Source of the DNA: a virus
DNA: 55,290 bases
IMG/VR virus record: IMGVR_UViG_3300046373_000115
Location: 1 to 55,290 of that record
Direction: 5' to 3' (one strand)
In this document: positions 36,070-37,191 of the stretch, piece by piece
Layout of the letters: each line of letters opens with the position of its first letter
Position numbering within the stretch: position 1 is the stretch's first letter
The notes under the pieces: model-generated
The model's database searches: none
Told to the model about the DNA's origin: nothing
What the model saw: only the letters and a program-made list of their open reading frames with translations
Made by a program: the position numbers and the translations under genes

Positions 36070-36142
36070 GATCGGCCTTTCGGTCTTGGGAGGGCTGGCG
36101 CTCGGCGAGGTAGGCGTCGAGGTCCACGACGGCGCGATTCAT
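36062..36142 (-). CDS. Very small protein (26 residues)
   Basis: This short frame starts with an ATG that overlaps the methyltransferase stop (ATGA) and ends with a TGA that lies inside the start of the next gene. The product begins MNRAVVDLDAYLAERQPSQD. It exactly fills the gap between two chained genes, which is the main evidence. Its role is unknown. It may only serve translational coupling. Confidence 0.45.
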   Translation of the reverse strand: MNRAVVDLDAYLAERQPSQDRKADHV

Positions 36143-37191
36143 GCTGCGAGCCTTTCGGCATCGATCGCGGTCAGCAGGGCTCGACCGAGGATTTCGGGGA
36201 CTTGCGGGACGACCGCATTGCCGAGGCCATGCAGGCGGTCCACTCGAGCGGGAACCCCATGAGCCACTCGACCCACGTCGGGTTCAGAGAGCCACCAACC
36301 ACGGCCCCCAAGTCGGGGCCTTTGTTGCGCTCCACTTCCCGGGCCGCACCCTCCGGCGTTCGCAAGCCCTTGGTCCCATCCGTCGCCCGCGGCGTCGGGT
36401 AAAGCGCCACCATCTGCGCCAGCGGAACACCCTTGTCGTGCGGCCTCGGCGGTTGGTTGCCTCGTCGCCCCTCGACCGCGGTCGGTGTCGGTGTCGGCCA
36501 CATGCGCAGGGCCATCACATCCTCCAAGCGCGATCGGCCTTGCCCCTGGATGTTCTTCGGGTTGCGAAGCGGCGAACTCATCCCGCTCGCACTCCTCGGC
36601 GTTGGCCACAGCGGCGCGAGAAAGTTCCGCGGCGACCGCCCGCCTGAACGCATCGCCAAAGCCTTGGTGTTGCTCGCCTCTGGGGTAGGCAACAATCCAG
36701 ACTCGGTCGCGCCGGTGAGGGGCGCCAACGGCGAAAGCTGGTATGCAATCCCACCAGAGATCATACCCGAGCGCGGCCAAGGCCCCGAGAACCTCTCCAA
36801 GTCCTCGACCAAGGAGCGCTGCGACGTTTTCCAGAATGAGGTACTTGGGTCGCCGTCCTGCTGCGATAAGCTCGCGAACCAGTCGGACGATTTCCCAGAA
36901 GAGGCCCGAGCGAGCGCCGTCAAGCCCAGCCCCGGCACCCGCGTAACTGAGGTCTTGGCAGGGGAATCCTCCACAGATGACATCGACGGCAAGTCCATCT
37001 GAGGCCAGTCGCTCAGCGGTAAGGGTGGTGACGTCGTCATATTGTTTGACCTCGGGCCAATGGTGGGCGAGCAGATGTCGGCAGATCGGAGAGACTTCGC
37101 AGAAGGCGACTGTCACCAATCCAGCGGCCTCAAGGCCGAGGGTGAAGCCGCCGATCCCGCTAAAAAGGTCGATGACGCGAAGCTCGCTCAC
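36139..37191 (-). CDS. C5 cytosine DNA methyltransferase
   Basis: The GTG start overlaps the upstream stop. The 350-residue enzyme has the full motif set: DLFSGIGG (8-15), catalytic Cys in GGFPCQDLS (near 78), ENV (121-123), HRRDRVW (159-165) and LGNAVVPQ near 330. The target-recognition region (about 170-300) is unusual, with repeated VANA, VADTDTDRGRG and LPDAAGDGW segments. Another long frame is open across most of the gene. It probably protects phage DNA from restriction or alters host gene expression. Confidence 0.9.
   Translation of the reverse strand: MSELRVIDLFSGIGGFTLGLEAAGLVTVAFCEVSPICRHLLAHHWPEVKQYDDVTTLTAERLASDGLAVDVICGGFPCQDLSYAGAGAGLDGARSGLFWEIVRLVRELIAAGRRPKYLILENVAALLGRGLGEVLGALAALGYDLWWDCIPAFAVGAPHRRDRVWIVAYPRGEQHQGFGDAFRRAVAAELSRAAVANAEECERDEFAASQPEEHPGARPIALGGCDGPAHVADTDTDRGRGATRQPTAEAARQGCSAGADGGALPDAAGDGWDQGLANAGGCGPGSGAQQRPRLGGRGWWLSEPDVGRVAHGVPARVDRLHGLGNAVVPQVPEILGRALLTAIDAERLAA
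36171..37040 (-). other. Overprinted open frame inside the cytosine methyltransferase gene
   Basis: A 289-codon frame lies wholly inside the methyltransferase gene, in a different reverse frame. Its product has repeated LLPTP, LWPTP, MWPTP and LYPTP elements, a PWPRSGM segment and NPTWVEWLMGFP near the end. I recall this pattern from annotated phage proteins. It has no good ribosome site. It may be a true second gene or a shadow forced by the conserved methyltransferase codons. Confidence 0.35.

Follow-up and report, generated by a model that had tools for sequence, protein, structure and literature searches.

A putative phage C5-cytosine DNA methyltransferase probably encoded as two chains in overlapping reading frames of one strand

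Two halves of one DNA-methylating enzyme encoded in overlapping frames are known from one or two bacterial enzymes. For M.EcoHK31I, Lee, Kam and Shaw are said to have found in 1995 that the gene of the larger chain contains, in a different frame, that of the smaller one, and that both are needed; M.EaeI is similar. C5 enzymes consist of a large domain, comprising motifs I-VIII and X, and a small domain, comprising the recognition region and motif IX (PMC3404938). In the two-polypeptide C5-methyltransferase M.EcoHK31I (YGGCCR), the larger chain carries motifs I-VIII and X and is also where the recognition domain is predicted to lie, while the smaller chain carries motif IX; in M.AquI (CYCGRG), also formed by two polypeptides, the catalytic chain carries motifs I-VIII and the second chain the recognition region and motif IX (PMC3404938). 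A search of openly accessible papers returned no earlier account of such an overlap in phages.

The window analysed here is the whole stretch of 55,290 nucleotides of the IMG/VR virus record IMGVR_UViG_3300046373_000115. It contains a C5-cytosine methyltransferase gene, M, and, wholly contained in it on the same strand according to the listing of open reading frames, a second gene, W (Table 1); this is the 289-codon frame inside a 350-codon methyltransferase gene that the sequence-only reading had described. M comprises motifs I-VIII, a weakly constrained stretch and motif X; W comprises an N-terminal segment, PTP repeats and motif IX. PF00145 matches M at residues 4-175 only (E 6.9e-40), that is over motifs I-VIII, and the catalytic features of its large domain (I, the PCQ of IV, the ENV of VI, and VIII) are all present there; the set that follows motif VIII (recognition region, IX and X) is complete only when M and W are combined, with IX in W and X in M, an order that the single-chain relatives described below confirm. 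PHROG 363 matches M (E 5.5e-75) and PHROG 1008 ('DNA methyltransferase') matches W (E 4.1e-28; W residues 19-275 to family positions 37-286 of 329); the phage protein family to which the sequence-only reading had linked this frame is thus real. W gives no match in Pfam, NCBIfam or PADLOC. The WPTP/YPTP-type elements and the sequence named along with them can be located in W, as four PTP elements and LNPTWVEWLMGFPLEWT, and the M frame reads VANA at 36598-36609 and VADT at 36490-36501, likewise in keeping with the earlier description.

Table 1. Features of the overlapping genes M and W in the window.
Feature	Position	Strand	Basis or remark
Gene M, C5-cytosine methyltransferase large-domain chain, 350 aa, GTG start	36139..37191	(-)	PF00145, PHROG 363 matches
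Gene W, nested chain in the +1 frame of M, 289 aa, ATG start	36171..37040	(-)	PHROG 1008 match, permutation test
M motif I, DLFSGIGG	37147..37170	(-)	
GAGGT, likely W ribosome-binding site, 8 nt upstream of the ATG at 37040	37049..37053	(-)	Predicted; duplex energy -7.1 kcal/mol
M motif IV, GGFPCQD, catalytic cysteine	36952..36972	(-)	
M motif VI, ENVAALL	36811..36831	(-)	
W N-terminal segment with conserved FSGPWPRSGM, lying over M motifs VI-VIII	36762..36791	(-)	Alignment and region test
M motif VIII, GAPHRRDRVWI	36694..36726	(-)	
W PTP-repeat region, proposed target-recognition region	36390..36692	(-)	
W PTP elements	36681-36692, 36597-36608, 36489-36500, 36390-36401	(-)	
W motif IX, LNPTWVEWLMGFPLEWT	36237..36287	(-)	M frame there reads EPDVGRVAHGVPARVD
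M motif X, LGNAVVPQ	36202..36225	(-)	M frame again, 62 nt past the first base of motif IX

Most probably, the locus encodes a single C5-cytosine DNA methyltransferase as two overlapping genes, M and W, whose chains would assemble into the active enzyme. The split falls along the line between the large and small domains of C5 enzymes: since actinophage relatives have the recognition region and motif IX of W in the same frame as motifs I-VIII and X, M would supply the large domain and W the small one. In M, the catalytic motifs I-VIII would be followed by an open and nearly unconstrained stretch and then by motif X; in W, in the +1 frame, the N-terminal segment over motifs IV-VIII would be followed by the PTP recognition region and motif IX. 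W would most likely be translated from its own ribosome-binding site and ATG, and the assembly of the two chains into a heterodimer with methylation activity is expected by analogy to M.EcoHK31I and M.AquI.

By the published motif description, the locus is like M.EcoHK31I in having motifs I-VIII and X in one chain (M) and motif IX in the other (W); unlike M.EcoHK31I, where the recognition domain is placed in the larger chain, the conserved text between motifs VIII and IX is here found in W, and M is barely conserved over this stretch. Because this published placement of the recognition domain, when tested, differs from what is seen in the window, the window is not filed as a member of the EcoHK31I type; the M/W pair appears to work like M.EcoHK31I, with the recognition region, and not only motif IX, in the second frame. 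The locus is also like M.AquI, in that the catalytic chain carries motifs I-VIII and the second chain the recognition region and motif IX, but the second chain of M.AquI also carries motif X, which in the window is found in M, and the M/W overlap of about 290 codons sets the window apart. Resembling M.AquI in motif division are 15 loci, Peaches and relatives among them, where M stops after motif VIII and W carries both IX and X. Finally, the single-chain enzymes of mycobacteriophage Ramsey (gp69), Actinomyces phage xhp1 and a prophage of M. abscessus have the same motifs I-VIII, PTP repeats, IX and X, but, unlike the window, with most of the PTP repeats, IX and X in the M frame; in loci of the Ramsey type, a short frame like W is still present at +1.

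Searched with tblastn at E 0.01, W finds 344 phage records; viral contigs contribute at least 592 matching stretches, and bacterial and archaeal genomes 324; in plasmids, the search gave six weak matches and nothing further. W lies at +1 of M in 214 of 217 examined loci, which were gathered by similarity to W, so that an open W is in part expected from the way they were chosen; the median overlap is 271 codons (148 non-redundant loci). Motif IX is in W and motif X in M in 180 of the 217, and the distance from the first base of motif IX to the start of motif X is 62 nt in most loci. By these similarity searches, the overlapping M/W architecture was found to be widespread in phages. As a nested gene pair it is already annotated in Paenibacillus phage Jacopo and Escherichia phage K1ind2, and PHROG 1008 includes, besides W, Peaches gp76, Jacopo gp57 and K1ind2 ORF28, although its annotation is silent on a role as partner chain in a second frame. 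The Roseovarius chromosome OX638333.1 has five matches of equal length and identity, which suggests several copies of one prophage, and one M/W pair is found on a contig filed under an archaeal metagenome-assembled genome (Candidatus Poseidoniaceae), which may be a virus contig or contamination.

The distribution of substitutions over codon positions, obtained from 59 disjoint pairs of relatives, changes along the gene. In the part that is M only, substitutions per site at M positions 1, 2 and 3 are 0.22, 0.15 and 0.51, and in the overlap at motifs IV-VIII they are 0.18, 0.11 and 0.34; from motif VIII to motif IX, they are 0.43, 0.19 and 0.16, so that the third position of M, which is the second of W, is the least variable. 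This shift means that the frame carrying the main signal changes from M to W just past motif VIII. The same is seen when native sequences are compared to codon permutations, 40 per locus, which keep the M protein and its codon counts fixed when W is scored and the W protein fixed when M is scored, with profiles trained without the cluster of the tested sequence. From motif VIII to motif IX, W reaches 45 bits against 4, in 110 of 110 loci; M scores 5.9 against 1.0 bits there, in 58 of 110 loci, where constraint on W alone would lead one to expect 3.3 stops in M. Over motifs IV-VIII, W scores 126 bits against 82 when permuted, and is above all permutations in 105 of 110 loci.

The change of frame just past motif VIII would also be expected if ribosomes shifted from M into the W frame near this motif, to give a fused chain of motifs I-VIII, recognition region and motif IX and no separate W, all the more as single-chain forms occur naturally. 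Such a frameshift is unlikely, however, given that W is under selection upstream of motif VIII, over motifs IV-VIII, and that short W frames are conserved even beside the single-chain enzymes (16/16), which argues that W has its own start and is not a frameshift product. Start sites are also stronger in the W frame than in the other two, the best ones reaching -6 kcal/mol or better in 68% of cases versus 44% and 19%. We thus infer that W and M are translated separately. In a number of single-chain loci (L218, L222-L233), the end of the short W frame is often found some 8 nt ahead of the M frame's first PTP repeat, so that the hand-off falls regularly on a repeat boundary.

The identity of W as part of the same enzyme is indicated by the single-chain relatives. 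A profile built from their recognition/IX/X half hits W at every one of the 148 non-redundant loci, which establishes, at the level of homology, the relation of W to this half. By this homology, the WPTP repeats of W form the target-recognition region of the enzyme and LNPTWVEWLMGFP its motif IX, and reading of the DNA target is proposed to lie with the PTP repeats. When IX-X is taken as a single-frame profile, the first solved structure found is 4onj ('DNA methyltransferase'), aligned at the IX-X position but weakly (E 0.19). One single-chain relative, L195, may owe its single frame to one indel in a metagenome contig; its AlphaFold2 model can be aligned end to end with M.HhaI (262 residues, model residues 4-359) at a Z of 25.3, with the repeat/recognition region modelled at low confidence. 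W modelled alone has a mean pLDDT of 59, and its model, from which no conclusion is drawn, has no match in the PDB by Foldseek. As judged from these comparisons, W is the small domain, with recognition region and motif IX, of the same enzyme, a point absent from the sequence-only reading; the locus would thus hold one enzyme in two frames, and not two unrelated overprinted genes. Alternatively, W could be a protein in its own right with a different function, such as a regulator of the methyltransferase or a counter-defence factor, which overlaps M by chance, and conservation of its N-terminal segment even next to single-chain enzymes would fit such a role; but with its C-terminal half homologous to the recognition/IX(/X) half of these enzymes, and motif IX found in W and not in M in most loci, we regard this as very unlikely. 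Beside single-chain enzymes, the conserved part of W is the segment lying on the catalytic motifs IV-VIII (36762-37040; FSETWPRSGMMRNG and its flanks in relatives).

At 65% GC, the length of the W frame is only mildly unusual and by itself weak evidence: the +1 frame is open in 2.5% (127/5000) of synonymous-codon permutations of M, with 2.7 stops expected; conservation is decisive. The W of the window scores 295 bits against a W profile trained without its own cluster, versus 97 +/- 17 (maximum 146) for M-synonymous permutations, and native W scores above all 40 of its permutations in 148 of 148 loci (238 versus 91 bits). Conversely, when the W protein is kept fixed, M after motif VIII scores above all W-synonymous permutations in 131 of 148 loci (64 versus 21 bits). 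In the motif IX block (117 loci), the residues of W are almost invariant; the M residue beside the W methionine is freely H, D, N or Y, and M retains its arginines, as well as V or I, at sites at which other residues would be compatible with W alone. These patterns in relatives demonstrate dual coding, in the sense that both frames are selected. The permutation, conservation and substitution results mean that W is not a shadow; past motif VIII, it is rather the VANA and VADT of M that, on the same comparisons, read as shadow text. The alternative, in which W would be only the non-coding shadow that a conserved methyltransferase gene casts and the WPTP proteins would be mis-annotated, is extremely improbable and is rejected on the codon permutation and codon-position tests: an open frame in the window alone is not very improbable and part of the similarity of W over motifs IV-VIII does follow from M (the 82 bits with permuted M), but W exceeds every permutation at every locus, the third codon position of M is the least variable between motifs VIII and IX, phages of the Peaches type retain W past the end of M, and the modules of W recur in the M frame of single-chain relatives.

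The sequence-only reading had left a choice between use of both frames and a widespread mis-annotation of methyltransferase shadows. The former holds, both frames being constrained in relatives; the latter is reversed, as the shadow in the stretch from motif VIII to motif IX is the methyltransferase frame. The two checks that it had named point the same way: substitutions are not accounted for by the methyltransferase frame alone, and stops are not scattered through W, which among the best 80 viral relatives is split by a stop in a single locus only (L023).

In the mycobacteriophages of cluster F1 (L254-L263), the methylase genes of near-identical isolates differ by several distinct single-base indels. 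The single-chain form is present in JoeyJr and RitaG; in Dorothy and RedBird, indels move the recognition-IX-X half from M to W; and in Poenanya, Polka14, Empress, Leperchaun and KingMidas, M is broken at about 100 codons. The passing between frames was considered as a phase switch, an idea that is set back by the several near-identical isolates in which single-base indels break M outright; because of these, the pattern is counted as at least partly decay. The indels could reflect decay, selection against the enzyme, or a switch.

These considerations favor, with moderate confidence, an old and widespread dual-coding architecture, in which the whole recognition small domain is encoded in the +1 frame of the catalytic domain in phages of many hosts, and the recognition/IX/X half resides in either frame depending on the lineage. 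A same-strand overlap of about 270 codons with both frames selected is unusual, and here two structural domains of one enzyme would overprint each other in hundreds of loci. If true, this would account for many of the overlapping pairs of 'DNA methyltransferase' annotations in phages and give PHROG 1008 a specific role as the W family; the published placing of the M.EcoHK31I recognition domain in the larger chain would need revision. The M/W loci would further form a large natural data set on the evolution of dual coding, and the prediction is that target specificity resides in the hidden frame, W.
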